Of a DNA stretch of 64,000 nucleotides, positions 16,267 through 63,113 are shown piece after piece. The first letter of the stretch is position 1. Every line of letters begins with the position of its first letter. The notes beneath the pieces were generated by a model. It had not been told where the DNA came from. It saw only the letters and a program-made list of their open reading frames with translations, and made no database searches. Location: the NCBI GenBank assembly GCA_019459485.1, contig JAIBEZ010000026.1, forward strand, positions 1 to 64,000, read 5' to 3'. The position numbers and the translations under genes were made by a program. The stretch is from Prolixibacteraceae bacterium. GTDB taxonomy: Bacteria; Bacteroidota; Bacteroidia; Bacteroidales; Prolixibacteraceae.

Positions 16267-16665
16267 TTAAAGTTTGCTTTTATGAAGTAGTCCGCCCTTT
16301 TGATTTAGAAGTAATGAGAATCGGATAAGTCCGTCATCGCGTACTATCAACTCATAGCCAACAACTTCCCCTTCACTGATTTCAATTACATTCATCAATT
16401 CCCCGTGGGCTGCGGCTTTATCTTTTATGTGCTGAGGGGTAGATTGTATTGGCAGGTTCTTTTTCAGGTTAATAAGTTCTCCTGAAGAATCAAAACGGGA
16501 GATGTGTTCTATGTCTTCAAGATAAAAAATAGCTTCGTAAAAATCGTCGGTTTTCAGCCATTCAATATTCAACGATTCGCCAAATTTTTGCAAAAAGGAA
16601 CTTTGTACTTTCTGAGGTATCGTAACACTTGGGAAGTGAAATATTTTACTTAGAATGTTTTTCAT
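16267..16665 (-). CDS. PepSY-like domain protein
   Basis: A 132-residue protein without a signal peptide. It has the alternating layout of PepSY-like (beta-lactamase-inhibitor-like) repeats: a helix with VQSSFLQKFGES, then W-containing and acidic strands (IEWLKTDDFYEAIFYLED), and a second half starting TPQHIKDKAAAHGE. Most such proteins in this phylum are periplasmic; this one appears cytoplasmic. It lies 132 bp downstream of an ECF sigma factor gene on the same strand, which suggests it may be co-expressed with, or act on, that sigma factor. Function unproven. Confidence 0.6.
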   Translation of the reverse strand: MKNILSKIFHFPSVTIPQKVQSSFLQKFGESLNIEWLKTDDFYEAIFYLEDIEHISRFDSSGELINLKKNLPIQSTPQHIKDKAAAHGELMNVIEISEGEVVGYELIVRDDGLIRFSLLLNQKGGLLHKSKL

Positions 16666-16797: not shown

Positions 16798-17373
16798 TTA
16801 ATTATTCGAATTGAATTTTTGCTGATACATATATATAACCCGCGTTCGAGCCCTTTTTAGTCTCATCTTTACGGCATCATCGCTGATGCGCAGGGTTTTG
16901 GCAATATGCTTGATTGGTAGATTGTCCTGATACTTCATCAATAACAGCACTTTTTCTTCAGGATGGATCAATTCAAGAATCGTTAGCAGGTTTTCATAAT
17001 TTGCTTCTTCGAAGTCGGTTTCCGATTCATCAATGATTTCCGGGATCTCATTACTACTGTTCCAGTCCGGATAGTGAAGTTTTTTCTTAACCCTTAAATA
17101 ATCGATGCAGTAATTATAGGTAATCGAATATAACCAGGAGGAAAAGGAAGAGTTTCCTTTAAAGCCGGGTATTTTTTCATAGGCTTTTGTCAATATATCA
17201 TTTGCAAATTCTTCAGCCTGTTTGGCATCTTTCAGAAAACTGTAGCATTTGTCTTTTACTTTATTAAAATAGCGGGAATAAAGCACTTCAAACAACTCAT
17301 GATTACCGGTGTTCATTATTAGATGAACAATTTCTTCATCTGTCTTATGTTGATATTTTGTTTTTAATGCCAT
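16798..17373 (-). CDS. ECF-type RNA polymerase sigma factor
   Basis: A 191-residue sigma-70 family factor. Region 2 contains the -10 recognition segment (FANDILTKAYEKIPGFKG, SSFSSWLYSITYNYCIDYLR), and region 4 is a helix-turn-helix (LLLMKYQDNLPIKHIAKTLR, ISDDAVKMRLKRARTRV). No anti-sigma factor gene of the FecR or zinc-finger type adjoins it; the next gene on the strand is a PepSY-like protein. Its upstream gap is shared with the divergent lipoprotein gene at 17579, so it could control the cell-envelope cluster that begins there. That link is inference. Confidence 0.88.
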   Translation of the reverse strand: MALKTKYQHKTDEEIVHLIMNTGNHELFEVLYSRYFNKVKDKCYSFLKDAKQAEEFANDILTKAYEKIPGFKGNSSFSSWLYSITYNYCIDYLRVKKKLHYPDWNSSNEIPEIIDESETDFEEANYENLLTILELIHPEEKVLLLMKYQDNLPIKHIAKTLRISDDAVKMRLKRARTRVIYMYQQKFNSNN

Positions 17374-17578: not shown

Positions 17579-18172
17579 ATGAAAAGTAAATTAATTATTG
17601 CTATTGCAGCAATGGGTGTCGCAGTGTTATTTAGCAGTTGTGCTAAAGTTCCTCAGACTGAAATTGATTCAGCACAAGCTGCTGTTCAAGAAGTTAAAGA
17701 TTCTGGTGCAGATTTGTATGTACCTGAAGCTTATTCAGCTTTAGTTGATTCAATGAAATCAGCTAACGAAAGTGTTGAAGTTGCTAAAGCCAAATGGTTC
17801 CCTAACTATTCAAAAGCTAAAGAACAATTAGCTGTAGTTAGCCAAATGTCTACTGACATCAAAGCTAAAGCAGAAACTCGCAAAGTTGAGTTGAAAGCTG
17901 AAGTTGAAGCTATGATTGTTGAAGTTAAAGCTTTAGTTGAAGAAAACAAAGCTTTGATCGCAAAAGCTCCAAGAGGTAAAGAAGGTAAAGCTGCTTTGGA
18001 AGCTATTTCTAGCGACCTTGCTGTAGCTGAAACAACTGTTACTGAAGTTGAAGCTCTTTTGGCTAATGGTGATTTGATTGGTTCTAACGACAAAATCAAA
18101 GCCGCTAAAGAAAAAGCTACTTCAATCAAAGCTGAATTGGAAGCTGCTATTGCAGCAAAAGGTGGAAAATAA
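17579..18172 (+). CDS. Abundant coiled-coil lipoprotein (DUF4398-like) ending in lysine; candidate peptidoglycan tether
   Basis: A 197-residue protein; ATG at 17579 is preferred over the TTG two codons earlier because it opens a clean lipoprotein signal with lipobox LFSSC (Cys at about residue 22). The mature part is almost wholly helical and rich in Ala, Lys, Glu and Val with no aromatic core after residue 80, which points to a long coiled coil or helical bundle. The first segment, AQAAVQEVKDSGADLYVPEA, resembles DUF4398 lipoproteins. It ends AAIAAKGGK with a C-terminal Lys, the residue by which Braun's lipoprotein is joined to peptidoglycan. Codons are strongly biased (GCT, GTT, GAA, AAA), as in highly expressed genes. 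It has its own terminator and stands directly before two L,D-transpeptidase genes. Confidence 0.85.
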   Translation: MKSKLIIAIAAMGVAVLFSSCAKVPQTEIDSAQAAVQEVKDSGADLYVPEAYSALVDSMKSANESVEVAKAKWFPNYSKAKEQLAVVSQMSTDIKAKAETRKVELKAEVEAMIVEVKALVEENKALIAKAPRGKEGKAALEAISSDLAVAETTVTEVEALLANGDLIGSNDKIKAAKEKATSIKAELEAAIAAKGGK

Positions 18173-18200
18173 CAATAACTCCTAGGAGTTGATCGTTTAC

Positions 18201-18233
18201 AATACCCGGGGGGCAACTTCCGGGTATTTTTTT
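18201..18233 (+). terminator. Strong terminator after the lipoprotein gene
   Basis: AATACCCGG (18201-18209) and CCGGGTATT (18220-18228) form a 9-bp stem around a 10-nt loop, followed by a run of seven T. It lies 28 bp past the lipoprotein stop and 13 bp before the next ATG. It would make the lipoprotein message far more abundant than read-through into the transpeptidase genes. Confidence 0.85.
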
Positions 18234-18245
18234 AATACAGAAGAA

Positions 18246-19382
18246 ATGGTTTTAAGGAAGAAGAATAAGAAGAAAATTAAGTGGTTGATAATTATTTTAT
18301 TCTCAGTTGTAACAATTGCAATCAGCATTTCTGTCATTATTGTATCACAAAAAGAACTGCCTACGGAGGATTTGAAGCTTGCCCGTGAAGCTTTGACAAT
18401 TGCAAAAGAAGCCGAGGCAAATATCTATTCTGAAAAAATTTACAAGGAATCTGTTCAGATGTATGATTCTGCAATGGTTAACTGGTCAAGGCAAAACTCC
18501 AGGTTCATTTTGTTTCGCAACTATGACCGGATTATTAACTTTGCTAAAAGTTCGAAAAAGAAAGCCGAAGAAGCAAGGGAAGAATCAATAAAAAAGTCGG
18601 CCAATTTAAGCAAGGATGTTCAGGCAGCATTTGTTAGCCTGGCAAAAAAAATAGAACTATACAACAAGCTTTTTAAAGACCTGCCATTACCGAAATCAGT
18701 TTTTGATGCGCATAACAAATCGAAAATGTTTTTAAGCGAATCAAAAATTGCTCATGAAAGTGGCAAGTTGAAAGACGCAGAAGTTTTATTCAAAAAAGCT
18801 GAGATATATGTCAACCATGCCAATGTTGCTGCCGGAAAAATGCTGCGCGACTATTTTGAAGACCATTCGAAGTGGAAGAATCTGGCAAATGATGCCATTG
18901 CTGCTTCACGCGGAGGGAATAAAGTGATCCTGGTTGATAAAGTTGCCCATTTACTGTATGTTTACCAATCAGGAAAAGTAATCCGTACTTACGATGCTGA
19001 ATTTGGTCCAAATTGGATGGCACACAAAGAACGAACCGGAGACAATGCCACTCCTGAAGGTAACTATCGCATCACCAAAAAGAAAGAGCGGGGAAATACA
19101 ATTTATCACAAAGCATTGCTTATTGATTATCCCAATGCAGAAGATAAAGTTAGATTTGCAGAGAAAAAAAAGAAAGGATTAATTTCCAGAAGTGCTGGTA
19201 TTGGTAGTTTAATCGAAATACACGGGCACGGTGGCAAAGGGTTTAATTGGACCAGCGGTTGCGTTGGATTGAAAAATCGGGATATGGACGATTTATTCAG
19301 GTTGGTAGGCAACGGAACCAGGGTAACAATAGTTGGTTCAATTGAGCCACTCTCAGTAATTTCAGAAGGATTGGATTTTTAA
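18246..19382 (+). CDS. L,D-transpeptidase (YkuD domain) with N-terminal membrane anchor and helical domain
   Basis: 378 residues from the ATG at 18246, chosen because the upstream frame runs through the terminator. A basic N-terminus (KKNKKKIKW) precedes one membrane segment (about residues 14-34), then an all-helical periplasmic domain whose start (LAREALTIAKEAEANIYSEK) resembles that of the adjacent lipoprotein. The C-terminal YkuD domain spans about residues 230-365: KVILVDKVAHLLYVY, TPEGNYRI, IEIHGHGG and the catalytic Cys in TSGCVGLKN (about residue 339). Such enzymes form 3-3 cross-links or attach proteins to the meso-diaminopimelate of peptidoglycan. Gene order suggests the neighbouring lipoprotein as a substrate. 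Confidence 0.9.
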   Translation: MVLRKKNKKKIKWLIIILFSVVTIAISISVIIVSQKELPTEDLKLAREALTIAKEAEANIYSEKIYKESVQMYDSAMVNWSRQNSRFILFRNYDRIINFAKSSKKKAEEAREESIKKSANLSKDVQAAFVSLAKKIELYNKLFKDLPLPKSVFDAHNKSKMFLSESKIAHESGKLKDAEVLFKKAEIYVNHANVAAGKMLRDYFEDHSKWKNLANDAIAASRGGNKVILVDKVAHLLYVYQSGKVIRTYDAEFGPNWMAHKERTGDNATPEGNYRITKKKERGNTIYHKALLIDYPNAEDKVRFAEKKKKGLISRSAGIGSLIEIHGHGGKGFNWTSGCVGLKNRDMDDLFRLVGNGTRVTIVGSIEPLSVISEGLDF

Positions 19383-19469
19383 TTCTTTTGAAACTTTTAT
19401 TAAAAAAAATAGTTGATGTTATAAATGTATTTAAAACGAGAATAACATCTGTAACAAAATAATATATCT

Positions 19470-20132
19470 ATGATTCGCTCCTTATTAATTTATATCGCGG
19501 TATTGTTTGTCGGAATCCTGTTCTTTATTTCGATGATACTTTTTGTAATTCCGGCATTGCAGGAATCAACGTTAGTCCTACCCTCTCTGAACAAAGCACA
19601 ATCGGCCCCGGAAGGCGTCGATAGCCAAAAGGAGAAACTGGAAAAAGAAATTGGACAGCTACAAACTAAGCTGGATAAATACACGCCATCAAATGCTTAT
19701 GTTATTATCAATACAACCGATAACCATTTCTATTTGTACAAAGGGAAAAATTTGATTCGTGAAGGCATTTGTTCCACCGGCAAAAATGAAAGACTTGTTC
19801 AGAGCGATGGCGAAAAGGAGTTTGTATTTCACACTCCGTTAGGTGTTCACCGTGTACAGCGCAAACAACCAAACCCGGTTTGGGCAAAACCCGACTGGGC
19901 ATTTATTGAAGACGGATTACCAATTCCGCCAAGAGGACACCCATCCCGGTTTGAATCAGGTACTCTCGGAGCTTATAAATTAGAGCTTGGTGATGGATAT
20001 ATGATTCATGGAACAATTTACAAACGTTTTATGGGATTGAATGTAACCCATGGTTGTGTCCGCATGGGCGACGAAGATTTGGAAATAGTTTACAAGACAA
20101 TGGAAGTTGGTTCAAAAGTTTATATATATTAA
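19470..20132 (+). CDS. Second L,D-transpeptidase (YkuD domain)
   Basis: A 220-residue protein with an N-terminal membrane segment (about residues 5-29), a short coiled coil (SQKEKLEKEIGQLQTKL) and a compact YkuD domain. Substrate-pocket and catalytic motifs are complete: IHGTIYKRFMG and the THGCVRMG signature with Cys at about residue 196. It is a smaller and more canonical enzyme than its upstream neighbour, with which it shares only the catalytic domain. It lies 87 bp downstream of that gene and 2 bp upstream of the next, so it probably heads or continues an operon acting in the periplasm. Confidence 0.92.
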   Translation: MIRSLLIYIAVLFVGILFFISMILFVIPALQESTLVLPSLNKAQSAPEGVDSQKEKLEKEIGQLQTKLDKYTPSNAYVIINTTDNHFYLYKGKNLIREGICSTGKNERLVQSDGEKEFVFHTPLGVHRVQRKQPNPVWAKPDWAFIEDGLPIPPRGHPSRFESGTLGAYKLELGDGYMIHGTIYKRFMGLNVTHGCVRMGDEDLEIVYKTMEVGSKVYIY

Positions 20133-20134
20133 TA

Positions 20135-20938
20135 ATGAAAGAAAATTCGGCTGAAGACTTTGATAGTCTGTTCATAAAAAAATACAAGGGGCTAAAGATT
20201 TTTGTGATCATCTTTAGTGCAATACTACTCACTTTTATAAGTGTCTATACATTTTTTTCGGTTGGTGCAGTTCGCGATCGAATGAAATTGGCACAAACAC
20301 AGGTTGAAGCAACAGATCCGGTCAGTCCATCCCTGATTGATTTGATGAAAGAAAAAGCCTGGGTTGAATCACGTATTAAAATGGCTTCAGGAGATTCAAT
20401 CGGTTTATCAATTGATCTGGGAAAACAACTACTCCAACTCGAATTGAAAGGTGTTGTTGTCATGTCAACAAAAATCCGTGACTACTCAACTTCCGGTTTC
20501 TTCAAACGAATGGATGGAAATGTTTATTTTTCAATGTTCGGAACACCATTGACAATTCAAAAATTCGAATCTTCCATCGAAAAAAATCCATTTAAAGTTG
20601 TACAGGCTCCAAAATCTGCAGAAGAGGCTGAAGCTTCAGTTGCTGTAAATGATTCGTTACCGAAAGAAAATGTATTCTGGACAGTTAAATTCGATCGTGA
20701 ATTTGAGTTGAATATACAGGGAATTGATTCCATTTCAGAATCTGAATCGAAATACCGATTGGGTAAAGGTTTTGAATTTAAAAGAGATCTGAAAAATATT
20801 TTCAATTCATTCAAGCACATTGTACAATTCAAGAAACCTATCTATACTCCTGAAATCCTCATTGCTATTCCGGAAAATGAAGCCAAGGCTATTCTGAGGG
20901 CTTTGCCCCGAAACGCATCGGTTACCATTCGCATTTAG
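20135..20938 (+). CDS. Membrane-anchored periplasmic protein of unknown function, in L,D-transpeptidase operon
   Basis: 267 residues from the ATG at 20135, two bases after the transpeptidase stop; the longer frame upstream only overlaps that gene. It has one N-terminal membrane segment (KIFVIIFSAILLTFISVYTF) and a periplasmic remainder of mixed alpha/beta character containing LDLGKQLLQLELKGV-like and GTPLTIQKFE segments. No family is recognised. Very tight coupling to the second L,D-transpeptidase suggests it works with it, for instance as a regulator or scaffold; this is inference. Confidence 0.75.
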   Translation: MKENSAEDFDSLFIKKYKGLKIFVIIFSAILLTFISVYTFFSVGAVRDRMKLAQTQVEATDPVSPSLIDLMKEKAWVESRIKMASGDSIGLSIDLGKQLLQLELKGVVVMSTKIRDYSTSGFFKRMDGNVYFSMFGTPLTIQKFESSIEKNPFKVVQAPKSAEEAEASVAVNDSLPKENVFWTVKFDREFELNIQGIDSISESESKYRLGKGFEFKRDLKNIFNSFKHIVQFKKPIYTPEILIAIPENEAKAILRALPRNASVTIRI

Positions 20939-56150: not shown

Positions 56151-56657
56151 CTAATAAGCGTAATCCTTCAACGATTTTTCCAGTTTTTTTCTGGTAAAGA
56201 AAATACGGCTTTTTACAGTTCCAAGCGGAAGCTTAAGTTCTTCTGCAATTTCCTTGTATTTAAAACCATCGAGGAACATGTTGAAAGGAACTTTGTATTC
56301 ATCTTCCAAGGCATTGATACATTTGATGATTTCTTTCGAGCTGTAAATTGATTCAGGAGAAGGATAACTTTTATCTTTTGAAAATTTCAAATGAAAATCG
56401 TTGTTCGCACCATCAAAAGTATTTTTTGATTTTACATTACGACGATAATTATTAATGAATGTATTTTTCATGATCGTGTAGATCCACGCCTTGAAATTTG
56501 TGTTTTGTGTAAACTTATCTCTATATACAAGAGCTTTCAAAAATGTTTCCTGAAGAAGATCCTGTGCTTTTTCGTGATCAGATGTCAGGCTTAATGCATA
56601 GTACAACAACTTGTCTTGCAGGCCTAAAAGTGCGGTGTTGAATTGAAGCTGTGTCAT
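56151..56657 (-). CDS. ECF-type RNA polymerase sigma factor
   Basis: 168 residues from the ATG at 56657; the longer frame adds 16 unconserved residues. Region 2 is LLYYALSLTSDHEKAQDLLQ with WIYTIMKNTFINNYRR, and region 4 is FKYKEIAEELKLPLGTVKSR. It has no adjoining anti-sigma factor gene and ends in its own terminator. The stand-alone layout recalls the general-stress-type ECF factors of Bacteroidales that lack a dedicated anti-sigma factor. Confidence 0.92.
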   Translation of the reverse strand: MTQLQFNTALLGLQDKLLYYALSLTSDHEKAQDLLQETFLKALVYRDKFTQNTNFKAWIYTIMKNTFINNYRRNVKSKNTFDGANNDFHLKFSKDKSYPSPESIYSSKEIIKCINALEDEYKVPFNMFLDGFKYKEIAEELKLPLGTVKSRIFFTRKKLEKSLKDYAY

Positions 56658-60105: not shown

Positions 60106-60346
60106 GGGCTCATAATTTTCAGGTAAAAATACAAAGTTTACACAAAACAACTATGTAATGGTAAATTAACGATAAATGAACCTATTTTTTTTAGTTTTGT
60201 TTAATGTTAAAATATCAGTAAACACTAAAAGTTGTATATTTAAATCAAAAATCATTAATCATTAAACGAGCATGTTCGTTGTACACAAAAAGCGGATGAT
60301 TATCTCACATGCGGGTTCATTCCGCACACACTTAAAATTTAGAAAT

Positions 60347-61672
60347 ATGAAAAAGACAATTTTACTTCTACTCATTGTGGCTTTCGCAGCCACAGTAAAT
60401 GGCCAGACTTCTGATAAAAAATGGGGCCTTGGAGTGGGTGTTGGAGCTTACGGAACTGTAACAGACAATGGCGGTGTAGGTTTTATGCCCGAATTGTATC
60501 TCAGCCGTTATCTGAGTCCGAAATTAGACCTGATGCTTAAAACAGACATGGGGCTTTTCAGATCTGATCTGTTAAACAAACTCGATTTGGTTAACCCATT
60601 TCTTGATTTGCGTTTAAACCTTTCCAACGAAACAAAAAATTTGCGACCATATCTTTATGCAGGGCCAGGTTTATTATGGGACAATCAGGAAACCGGACTA
60701 AATTTCAATGCCGGTCTGGGAACCAAGTATTATTTCAATCCAGCCACTGCGTTGTATCTTGATGCCGGTTATATTCATGGCATTGAAATTACAAGAGGTA
60801 CTGACCTTGTAAGGGATAATTTCATTAAAGGTACTATCGGACTTGAATTCGACTTTGGTAAAGTTCAGGATTCGGACATGGACGGTGTTTCGGACAAAAA
60901 AGACAAATGCCCGAATACCCCTGCCGGTGTTGCCGTTGATGAAAACGGTTGTCCTTTGGATACCGATGGTGACGGTGTTGCCGATTACCTTGACGATTGC
61001 CCAACTGAAGCCGGATTAACTTCTCTTAAAGGATGTCCGGACAGGGATAAAGACGGTATTGCAGACAAAGACGATGCTTGTCCTGATGTTTTCGGATTGG
61101 CCAGCCTGAAAGGTTGCCCTGATACTGACGGCGATGGTGTTACCGATAAAGACGACAAATGTCCGGATACCCCGAAAGGCTGGAAAGTAGATGCTTCAGG
61201 ATGCCCTATTGATACTGATAAAGATGGTTTATTCGATGGCGAAGATGATTGTCCTACTGTTGCAGGTCCGAAAGAGAACAAAGGTTGCCCGGTGAAAGAG
61301 TTAACTGCAGAAGAAATCGAAGCACAAAAAATGAAAGTAGAACCAGTCTATTTTGATTTTGACAAAGCCAACTATATCGCAATCGAAAAAGCAAAAATCG
61401 ATAAATTGGTAAATTTACTGAAAGAAAACAGTAATTATAATGTTAACATTACCGGTCATGCCGACAGCAAGGGAGAAGACAACTACAATATCAATCTTTC
61501 GAAAAGACGTATTGCTTCAGTTGTAAAAGCAATTACTGCTGGCGGAATCAAGAAGAACCGCATTTTGTCAACAAAACCTCTGGGTGAATCAAGCCCCGCT
61601 GCTACCAACGATACCGAAGAAGGTCGTGCACTGAACCGCAGGGTAGAATTTGAAGTGATTAAAACAAAATAA
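60347..61672 (+). CDS. OmpA family protein with thrombospondin type 3 repeats (paralogue 1)
   Basis: 441 residues from the ATG at 60347; the frame upstream is not a signal. Layout: signal peptide (to about 20), an eight-strand barrel-like N-terminal domain (WGLGVGVGAYGTV ... GTIGLEFDFG), five calcium-binding TSP3 repeats (DSDMDGVSDKKDKCPNTPAG, DTDGDGVADYLDDCP and others) and a C-terminal OmpA domain (YFDFDKANYI, ITGHADSKGEDNYN, NRRVEFEV) that holds peptidoglycan. It anchors the outer membrane to the wall. The leader has a TAGTTTTG element at 60192-60199 and a hairpin (TGCGG/CCGCA) at 60310-60326. Confidence 0.92.
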   Translation: MKKTILLLLIVAFAATVNGQTSDKKWGLGVGVGAYGTVTDNGGVGFMPELYLSRYLSPKLDLMLKTDMGLFRSDLLNKLDLVNPFLDLRLNLSNETKNLRPYLYAGPGLLWDNQETGLNFNAGLGTKYYFNPATALYLDAGYIHGIEITRGTDLVRDNFIKGTIGLEFDFGKVQDSDMDGVSDKKDKCPNTPAGVAVDENGCPLDTDGDGVADYLDDCPTEAGLTSLKGCPDRDKDGIADKDDACPDVFGLASLKGCPDTDGDGVTDKDDKCPDTPKGWKVDASGCPIDTDKDGLFDGEDDCPTVAGPKENKGCPVKELTAEEIEAQKMKVEPVYFDFDKANYIAIEKAKIDKLVNLLKENSNYNVNITGHADSKGEDNYNINLSKRRIASVVKAITAGGIKKNRILSTKPLGESSPAATNDTEEGRALNRRVEFEVIKTK

Positions 61673-61691
61673 AAGTATCATTCATTTTTTC

Positions 61692-61726
61692 AAAAAGCCT
61701 TGTCTGAATTCAGACAAGGCTTTTTT
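61692..61726 (+). terminator. Terminator after OmpA paralogue 1
   Basis: AAAAAGCCTTGTCTGAA and its exact inverse complement form a nearly loop-free palindrome followed by a T-run. It lies 20 bp past the stop codon and separates the two paralogues into distinct transcripts. Confidence 0.88.
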
Positions 61727-61775
61727 ATTATTCAGAATAAAATGTATATATTTCGATAACCAAAAATAAACAAAT

Positions 61776-63113
61776 ATGAAAAAGCTACTTTTACTTGCTA
61801 TCATTTTGACTTTTGCTGCAACTGTGAATGCACAAACAGCTGATAAAAAATGGGGGTTCGGCGCAGGATTGGGGGCTTATGGCACCATCGACAACTCTGG
61901 CATTGGGCTAATGCCGGAATTATACTTAAGCCGCTATCTCAGCCCCCGGTTCGACATTATGCTTAAAAATGAACTTGGTCTTTTCAGATCTGATCTGCTG
62001 AGTGATCTAGATTTAGCCAATCCTTCACTCAGTCTCCGATTAAAACTTTCCAACGAAACAAAAAACTTCCGCCCGTACTTATTTGCCGGACCAGGTTTTT
62101 TAGCCGATAACAATGAATCAGGATTGAATTTTAATGCAGGATTGGGAGCAAAATATTATTTCACACCAAAAACTGCTTTCTATTTTGATGCCGGTTATAT
62201 CAACGGAATAGAAATAACGAGGGGTTTGGAAAAGGTAACAGATAACTTTTGGAAAGCCACCCTGGGAATGGAATTTGACTTTGGAAAAACAAAGGATTCG
62301 GACATGGATGGTGTTTCAGACAAAAAAGACAAATGCCCGGATACCCCTGCCGGAGTTGCTGTTGACGCAAATGGTTGTCCATTGGATACTGATGGTGACG
62401 GAGTTCCGGATCATTTGGACGACTGTCCGACTGTTGCCGGACTGGCTTCCTTGAAAGGCTGCCCTGACAGTGACAAAGATGGCATTGCCGACAAAGACGA
62501 TGCTTGTCCGGATGTTTTCGGCTTGGCCAGTCTGAAAGGCTGCCCCGATACTGACGGTGACGGTGTTACCGATAAAGACGACAAATGCCCTGACACTCCG
62601 AAAGGCTGGAAAGTAGATGCTTCAGGATGCCCGGTTGATACTGATAAGGATGGTTTATTTAATGAAGAAGACGATTGTCCAACGGTTGCCGGACCAAAAG
62701 AAAACAAAGGATGCCCGGTAGAAGAGGTTGTGAAAAAGGAAATCACAATTGACCAGATTGAAATTCAAAACATCCAAGCTACCCCGATTCATTTCTTGTC
62801 GGATAAAAGTTATGTGACCGACTATTCAAAAGGAATTCTCGACAAACTGATCACGATCCTCAATGGAAACAAAGACTACAATGTCAATATTTTCGGATAT
62901 GCCGACAGTCAGGGTTCTGATGGATACAATGTTAAATTATCTCAGGACCGCATTGAATCAACAATTGAATATCTGGAATCAAAGGGTATTTCGGCCAATC
63001 GCATTATTCATCAAAAAGCATTTGGTGAAGCAAAACCGATCGCCAGCAACAAAACTCCGGAAGGCCGTTTGCAGAACCGCCGTGTTGAATTTGAGATTTT
63101 CAAAATGAGATAA
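61776..63113 (+). CDS. OmpA family protein with thrombospondin type 3 repeats (paralogue 2)
   Basis: A 445-residue close paralogue of the gene just upstream, with the same layout: signal peptide, barrel-like domain, five TSP3 repeats and OmpA domain. The TSP3 region is nearly identical between the two, whereas the OmpA domains differ more: here the first strand reads TPIHFLSDKSYVTDYSK instead of PVYFDFDKAN, and the loop has IFGYADSQGSDGYN. The peptidoglycan-contacting Asp and Arg (ADSQG, SQDRIES) remain. The pair arose by tandem duplication. Confidence 0.92.
   Translation: MKKLLLLAIILTFAATVNAQTADKKWGFGAGLGAYGTIDNSGIGLMPELYLSRYLSPRFDIMLKNELGLFRSDLLSDLDLANPSLSLRLKLSNETKNFRPYLFAGPGFLADNNESGLNFNAGLGAKYYFTPKTAFYFDAGYINGIEITRGLEKVTDNFWKATLGMEFDFGKTKDSDMDGVSDKKDKCPDTPAGVAVDANGCPLDTDGDGVPDHLDDCPTVAGLASLKGCPDSDKDGIADKDDACPDVFGLASLKGCPDTDGDGVTDKDDKCPDTPKGWKVDASGCPVDTDKDGLFNEEDDCPTVAGPKENKGCPVEEVVKKEITIDQIEIQNIQATPIHFLSDKSYVTDYSKGILDKLITILNGNKDYNVNIFGYADSQGSDGYNVKLSQDRIESTIEYLESKGISANRIIHQKAFGEAKPIASNKTPEGRLQNRRVEFEIFKMR

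Follow-up and report, generated by a model that had tools for sequence, protein, structure and literature searches.

A conserved four-gene cassette in a Prolixibacteraceae bacterium combines a helical lipoprotein with YkuD-family proteins, one of which carries a homologous helical domain

The closest described counterparts of the locus analysed here are the Escherichia coli lipoprotein Lpp with its L,D-transpeptidases (LDTs) LdtA, LdtB and LdtC, and DpaA (YafK), the enzyme that detaches Lpp. In Dickeya, attachment required a Lys at the C-terminus (PMC12274547), and LDT acceptors besides a C-terminal Lys are on record (PMC12729407). DpaA is described as lacking the Arg that transpeptidases carry two residues past the catalytic Cys (position Cys+2), and the LD-carboxypeptidases Csd6, Pgp2 and Bd1075 lack it as well (PMC8263019). 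We analysed a four-gene cassette at positions 17579 to 20938 of a 64,000-nucleotide stretch of DNA from a Prolixibacteraceae bacterium of the phylum Bacteroidota (positions 1 to 64,000, forward strand, of contig JAIBEZ010000026.1, assembly GCA_019459485.1), hereafter called the window. The cassette encodes a lipoprotein, two YkuD proteins (YkuD 1 and YkuD 2) and a membrane-anchored partner. The lipoprotein and YkuD 1 contain homologous helical domains, and our preferred reading, which we regard as about evenly balanced between right and wrong, is that the cassette is a paired-domain envelope module linking an outer-membrane lipoprotein to wall-editing enzymes.

As in the Lpp system, an abundant-looking lipoprotein is encoded beside L,D-transpeptidase genes. 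Unlike Lpp, which is a short single-helix trimer, the cassette lipoprotein has 197 amino acids, is a predicted multi-helix bundle and does not conserve its terminal Lys; the Lpp family was not among its Pfam matches. LdtA-C are described as soluble (PMC12729407), whereas YkuD 1, and by eye also YkuD 2, appears to be membrane-anchored. The original prediction, made from the letters of the window alone, had given coordinates and translations for the four proteins, and these are correct. The features are as follows.

17579..18172, + strand: lipoprotein, 197 amino acids, DUF4398-like helical bundle with an SSC lipobox and the C-terminus AAIAAKGGK.
17639-17641, + strand: lipidation site Cys21 of the lipoprotein.
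17966..17986, + strand: near-invariant loop A-P-[RK]-G-K-[ED]-G of the lipoprotein, between helices 78-129 and 134-162.
18158..18169, + strand: basic C-terminal tail KGGK of the lipoprotein; its terminal Lys is not conserved.
18201..18228, + strand: intrinsic terminator in the gap between the lipoprotein and YkuD 1 genes, 12 pairs and a T-run.
18246..19382, + strand: YkuD 1, 378 amino acids, catalytic Cys339 with Gly at Cys+2, DpaA/LD-carboxypeptidase type; membrane helix at residues 5-33, lipoprotein-homologous helical domain at 40-221, YkuD domain at 226-362.
19470..20132, + strand: YkuD 2, 220 amino acids, N-terminal transmembrane segment (by eye), THGCVR motif, Cys196 and Arg198.
20135..20938, + strand: membrane-anchored partner, 267 amino acids, N-terminal transmembrane segment by eye.

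Related loci were collected by scanning named genomes with a 16-member lipoprotein alignment; the best 80 of 251 relatives were kept, and the locus counts given here thus represent the nearer part of the lipoprotein family. Many of the nearest named relatives bear the label of Prolixibacteraceae metagenome-assembled genomes, and the top one is labelled Chitinophaga pinensis. Cultured strains among the carriers include Breznakibacter xylanolyticus DSM 6779 (L091) and Mangrovibacterium marinum DSM 28823 (L081). Of the 74 loci long enough to hold it, 73 have the complete four-gene cassette in order. Downstream of the lipoprotein gene, YkuD 1 is found in 79/80 loci, YkuD 2 in 75/80 and the fourth gene in 73/80; of the seven loci that lack the fourth gene, six are cut off before it could appear. 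The remaining one, L103, carries a copy of the lipoprotein but not the enzymes; its neighbours are a sigma-54 response regulator and genes whose products have type IX secretion tails. Within the genus, 19 of 23 genomes, the window's genome included, contained the lipoprotein in a single-sequence search.

The combination was also traced in a sample of 392 genomes of the phylum. The lipoprotein profile (E 0.001) matches 20 of these, nine of which give strong matches (E no higher than 3.5e-34), and the YkuD 1 profile (E 1e-10) matches 106. The YkuD 1 alignment runs from the helical domain onwards in nine genomes and starts at profile position 191 or later, the catalytic end, in the other 97. Strong lipoprotein matches and YkuD proteins that include the helical domain fall in the identical 9/392 genomes, and in those nine carriers the YkuD 1 profile also matches the lipoprotein itself.

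The original prediction had proposed kinship between the lipoprotein and the first enzyme's helical domain, and profile comparison bears this out. With 46 lipoproteins compared to 53 YkuD 1 proteins, hhalign gave an E value of 2.4e-15 and a probability of 98.5 over 163 columns, in an alignment that starts at the lipid or membrane anchor. The mature lipoprotein scored 88.2 against the isolated YkuD 1 domain; the highest of 60 column shuffles was 16.2 and the reversed domain gave 15.2, results that rule out chance kinship from helical composition. The lipoprotein scored 29.7 against its own reverse, indicating that helical profiles of this kind can reach about 30 without order, and we use this value as a yardstick below.

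The expectation that the lipoprotein is all-helical agrees with its AlphaFold model (predicted local distance difference test, pLDDT, 91), in which six helices follow the signal peptide (26-41, 44-47, 49-70, 78-129, 134-162 and 166-195). For YkuD 1 (pLDDT 94) helices are predicted at 40-55, 58-61, 63-84, 94-142, 150-171 and 175-221, followed by the catalytic domain. The predicted helix succession is the same in both proteins, so that the catalytic domain of YkuD 1 would occupy the place of the basic tail of the lipoprotein. Residues P131, G133 and K134 of the near-invariant loop are unchanged in 81/81 alignment rows, and the loop is also found in eight distant lipoproteins. Judging from the order of the helices, the lipoprotein may form a stalk with the basic tail and the loop at the same end. 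A Foldseek search with the model returned nothing at E 0.001 or better, its PDB matches being weak (BB0323, E 0.11; EzrA, E 0.28); the top match in a search of solved structures was a designed coiled coil (E 0.0079). Pfam EzrA was matched at E 0.1 by 8/46 lipoprotein family members.

Both helical domains appear to be related to DUF4398 (PF14346), the top Pfam hit of the window lipoprotein. At E 0.1 this family matches 22/46 lipoproteins (best 5e-6) and 24/53 YkuD 1 proteins (best 6e-6), and the window lipoprotein scores 25.0 bits as a protein and 28.1 in the genome scan, compared with a gathering score of 27.9. DUF4398 occurs in 28/392 genomes of the phylum sample, in 23 of them above the cut-off. 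In 20/392 genomes we found 21 adjacent pairs in which a stand-alone DUF4398 protein lies beside a longer DUF4398 protein (L175-L193, L039 and L041). An OmpA domain is present in 20/20 longer partners scanned; the 21st, L175, was outside that scan. The remaining eight genomes with DUF4398 matches, including the window's, have no adjacent pair of matches. Five of the 11 weak lipoprotein matches in the phylum sample are the short DUF4398 proteins of these pairs.

We compared the cassette domains with both members of the DUF4398 pairs. In a first run of the lipoprotein against the stand-alone DUF4398 proteins, one of 40 shuffles scored 135.9, which was taken as an artefact of gappy columns; these columns were dropped and the DUF4398 comparisons redone with 60 shuffles. 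The YkuD 1 helical domain matched the stand-alone DUF4398 proteins with E 2.7e-8 and a score of 50.2 (shuffle maximum 14.0), and the stand-alone proteins matched the OmpA partners with 38.5 (19.1). The other comparisons are weak by the yardstick of about 30: lipoprotein against stand-alone DUF4398, 32.0 (19.6); YkuD 1 domain against OmpA partners, 29.7 (16.8); and lipoprotein against OmpA partners, 21.8 (16.9). In view of the self-reverse score, three of the five comparisons are therefore weak and two are stronger.

Like the DUF4398/DUF4398-OmpA pairs, the cassette consists of adjacent genes encoding the domain alone and the domain fused to one that acts on peptidoglycan. The two arrangements differ in detail: YkuD 1 has a YkuD domain and a transmembrane anchor, whereas the DUF4398-OmpA partner has OmpA and looks like a lipoprotein, and the stand-alone DUF4398 protein of the OmpA pairs is shorter than the cassette lipoprotein. 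The recurrent layout is thus a stand-alone DUF4398-type protein together with a wall-acting fusion, with OmpA elsewhere and YkuD in the cassette. This recurrence is the main reason why we favour pairing of the domains over simple duplication.

The lipoprotein had been described as highly expressed-looking, and codon usage agrees. Relative to 26 genes from its genome's ribosomal-protein region, chosen by eye from N-termini, its codon adaptation index is 0.868 and ranks first among the 48 window open reading frames (ORFs) of at least 150 amino acids (mean 0.688, standard deviation 0.046); the ribosomal-region reference genes themselves have a mean of just 0.732, and the cassette enzymes have 0.690 and 0.684. 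The proposed terminator between lipoprotein and first enzyme is also well founded: a hairpin (at most -8 kcal/mol) and its T-run are present at this place in 59/80 related loci, as opposed to 0/75 after YkuD 1 and 4/73 after YkuD 2. We infer from these signals that the lipoprotein is more abundant than the cassette enzymes; it probably sits on the periplasmic face of the outer membrane.

The same terminator and codon bias, which separate the lipoprotein from the enzymes, would also fit an explanation without functional pairing, in which the lipoprotein serves as an abundant spacer or scaffold without covalent attachment, the enzymes edit the wall independently and the homology dates from an old duplication. 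The domain might then be a generic helical stalk, as the weak resemblance to EzrA and BB0323 would allow. We consider this explanation rather unlikely: the co-occurrence in the identical 9/392 genomes, the near-complete retention of the cassette and the recurrent DUF4398 pairs all argue against it.

The claim that both enzymes are L,D-transpeptidases is supported for the second and not for the first. Pfam identifies a YkuD domain in each, with E values of 2.6e-20 and 5.1e-22. In YkuD 2, the motif His...[ST]xGC with Arg at Cys+2 is kept in 73/73 readable orthologues (75 examined). Like E. coli LdtA, LdtB, LdtC and LdtE it has Cys-x-Arg, and it falls on their side of a tree of 37 selected YkuD domains, which suggests that YkuD 2 is of the canonical L,D-transpeptidase type.

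On the other hand, YkuD 1 has no Arg at Cys+2: the position is Ala in 61 and Gly in 15 of 76 readable ORFs (80 examined, four cut or partial), and thus Ala or Gly in 76/76. In the E. coli genes that we fetched it is Ala in DpaA and Arg in LdtA, LdtB, LdtC and LdtE. The tree is split with support 99/96 into YkuD 2 with LdtA/B/C/E and YkuD 1 with DpaA and ten other phylum proteins. YkuD 1 lies on the DpaA side, yet it is not the supported sister of DpaA; the composition of DpaA and a long branch within the DpaA group were flagged. A separate YkuD protein of the window's own genome (L134, 947-1693, C90) sits on a long branch and clusters with E. coli DpaA at 100/98.

YkuD 1 was also compared with solved structures. 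Its profile ranks DpaA first, then Bd1075, Pgp2 and Csd6, with an L,D-transpeptidase last; the top sequence match is DpaA 8ikr (E 2.1e-9), and the top Foldseek match is Bd1075 (7o21, E 9.7e-8). The roles of DpaA Lys83, Tyr109 and Tyr131 are taken from PMC10653827. Like DpaA, YkuD 1 keeps the Lys83 equivalent (K261, Lys in 78/78) and the Tyr109 equivalent (Y287, Tyr in 69 and Phe in 8 of 77). Unlike DpaA, it has an added membrane helix and DUF4398-like domain, a longer loop before the WT-x-GC motif and, in this alignment, no Tyr131 equivalent. It differs from the LD-carboxypeptidases in that the Trp of their D-Ala pocket aligns with Glu324 (Glu in 76/77). Lack of the Arg at Cys+2 and the position on the DpaA side of the tree favour a hydrolase over a transpeptidase for YkuD 1.

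In our preferred reading, the lipoprotein and the membrane-anchored YkuD 1 bear homologous DUF4398-type bundles, and these bundles would either bind one another or compete for a common partner. The abundant lipoprotein would thereby position or restrain the scarcer YkuD 1 at the wall. YkuD 1 would most likely be a hydrolase of the DpaA/LD-carboxypeptidase kind cutting at meso-diaminopimelate (meso-DAP), and YkuD 2 the transpeptidase that forms L,D bonds, so that the cassette would tie both the formation and the cleavage of L,D bonds to a partner in the outer membrane.

Several observations weigh against this proposal. Descent by duplication alone would yield equal homology, and contact between the bundles is a conjecture. 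The locus L103 keeps a copy of the lipoprotein and none of the cassette enzymes, and the cassette is not universal: 38/101 related genomes contained the lipoprotein in a single-sequence search. The fold ranking for YkuD 1 is Bd1075, then Bacillus subtilis YkuD, a transpeptidase, and then DpaA; another YkuD gene of this genome groups closer to DpaA than YkuD 1 does; and the NCBIfam DpaA model NF040599 scores 23.3 bits on YkuD 1, compared with a cut-off of 365 bits. In a stretch of low-confidence alignment, Leu322 of YkuD 1 stands at DpaA Tyr131, and Glu324 aligns with a Met in DpaA and a Trp in Csd6. These two replacements make the reaction type of YkuD 1 less certain.

The original prediction had presented the lipoprotein as a counterpart of the Braun lipoprotein, attached through a C-terminal Lys, and this label is not earned. 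The last residue of the lipoprotein in the 80 near loci is K in 40, R in 21, Y in 4, F in 4, A in 3, S in 3, I in 2 and H, W and V in one each; in eight distant loci that also carry these lipoprotein and YkuD 1 genes it is K in one, R in one and S in six. A Lys is found among the final six residues in 79/80 near loci and 1/8 distant loci, and three of the eight distant lipoproteins have no Lys within the last 15 residues. A better conserved Lys lies at alignment column 193 (78/81 rows); the window lipoprotein has Ala there and Lys one residue further on. In the near relatives L063 and L064, the tail is lengthened by a Lys-Ala-Pro-rich stretch ending in KK.

Lack of conservation of the terminal Lys weakens a Braun-type mechanism, in which YkuD 2 would join a near-C-terminal Lys of the lipoprotein to meso-DAP and a domain-docked, DpaA-like YkuD 1 would remove it. 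We judge this mechanism unlikely. The cassette does hold one canonical transpeptidase and one enzyme of the DpaA side, and the terminal K of half of the near loci, the Lys within the last six residues and that of column 193 would offer acceptors, as LDTs are reported to use acceptors besides a C-terminal Lys (PMC12729407). Against it stand the 40/80 near and 7/8 distant loci whose last residue is not Lys, the distant loci with no Lys near the end, and the dependence of Dickeya attachment on the C-terminal Lys (PMC12274547). A lineage-specific link between lipoprotein and wall in the nearer group is possible, as is covalent tethering of the lipoprotein. The window's own genome has 16 OmpA-domain matches and five YkuD matches above the cut-off, and given these OmpA domains conventional tethers are probably present. 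The cassette would thus be one among several wall-coupling and wall-editing resources of this cell.

A further combination, which we consider distinctly improbable, joins a reversible covalent tether, attached by YkuD 2 and detached by YkuD 1 through the target's own domain, with DUF4398 as a general pairing domain. If true, the reversible tether would give DpaA-like enzymes a natural substrate in bacteria without Lpp, and DUF4398 would connect anchors in the outer membrane with modules that bind the wall (OmpA) or edit it (YkuD). In the literature on DUF4398 and on Bacteroidota L,D-transpeptidases or Lpp-like tethers, the cassette appeared in no title or abstract found. Within the literature searched it is thus an undescribed combination of known parts, uniting an abundant-looking lipoprotein with a YkuD enzyme of the DpaA side and an L,D-transpeptidase of the canonical type, and in it the shared domain hints at partners. 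DUF4398, a domain of unknown function, thereby gains a concrete role to test, and coupling of outer membrane and wall in Bacteroidota becomes testable in cultured bacteria.

The fourth cassette protein matched no family in the Pfam scan. It scored 24.1 against YkuD 2 (shuffle maximum 18.6) and 16.1 against YkuD 1 (16.0), and its C-terminal piece aligned with that of YkuD 2 at an hhalign probability of 62.6, a value without a shuffle control. These comparisons are no more than suggestive: the protein may have a degenerate YkuD fold that lacks the catalytic Cys.

Two genes on the opposite strand adjoin the cassette upstream, and a scan with Rfam near the cassette found nothing except a tRNA.

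16798..17373, - strand: extracytoplasmic function (ECF) sigma factor, divergent; upstream neighbour in 56/80 loci.
16267..16665, - strand: PepSY-like protein, just below the Pfam cut-off; behind the sigma factor in 55/80 loci.

The divergent sigma factor and the PepSY-like gene are a possible regulator of the cassette. A second ECF sigma factor at window positions 56151-56657 has the third-highest codon index of the 48 window ORFs. At 60272-63080 the window contains OmpA-domain matches; one of these proteins also has a beta-barrel domain and thrombospondin type 3 repeats.

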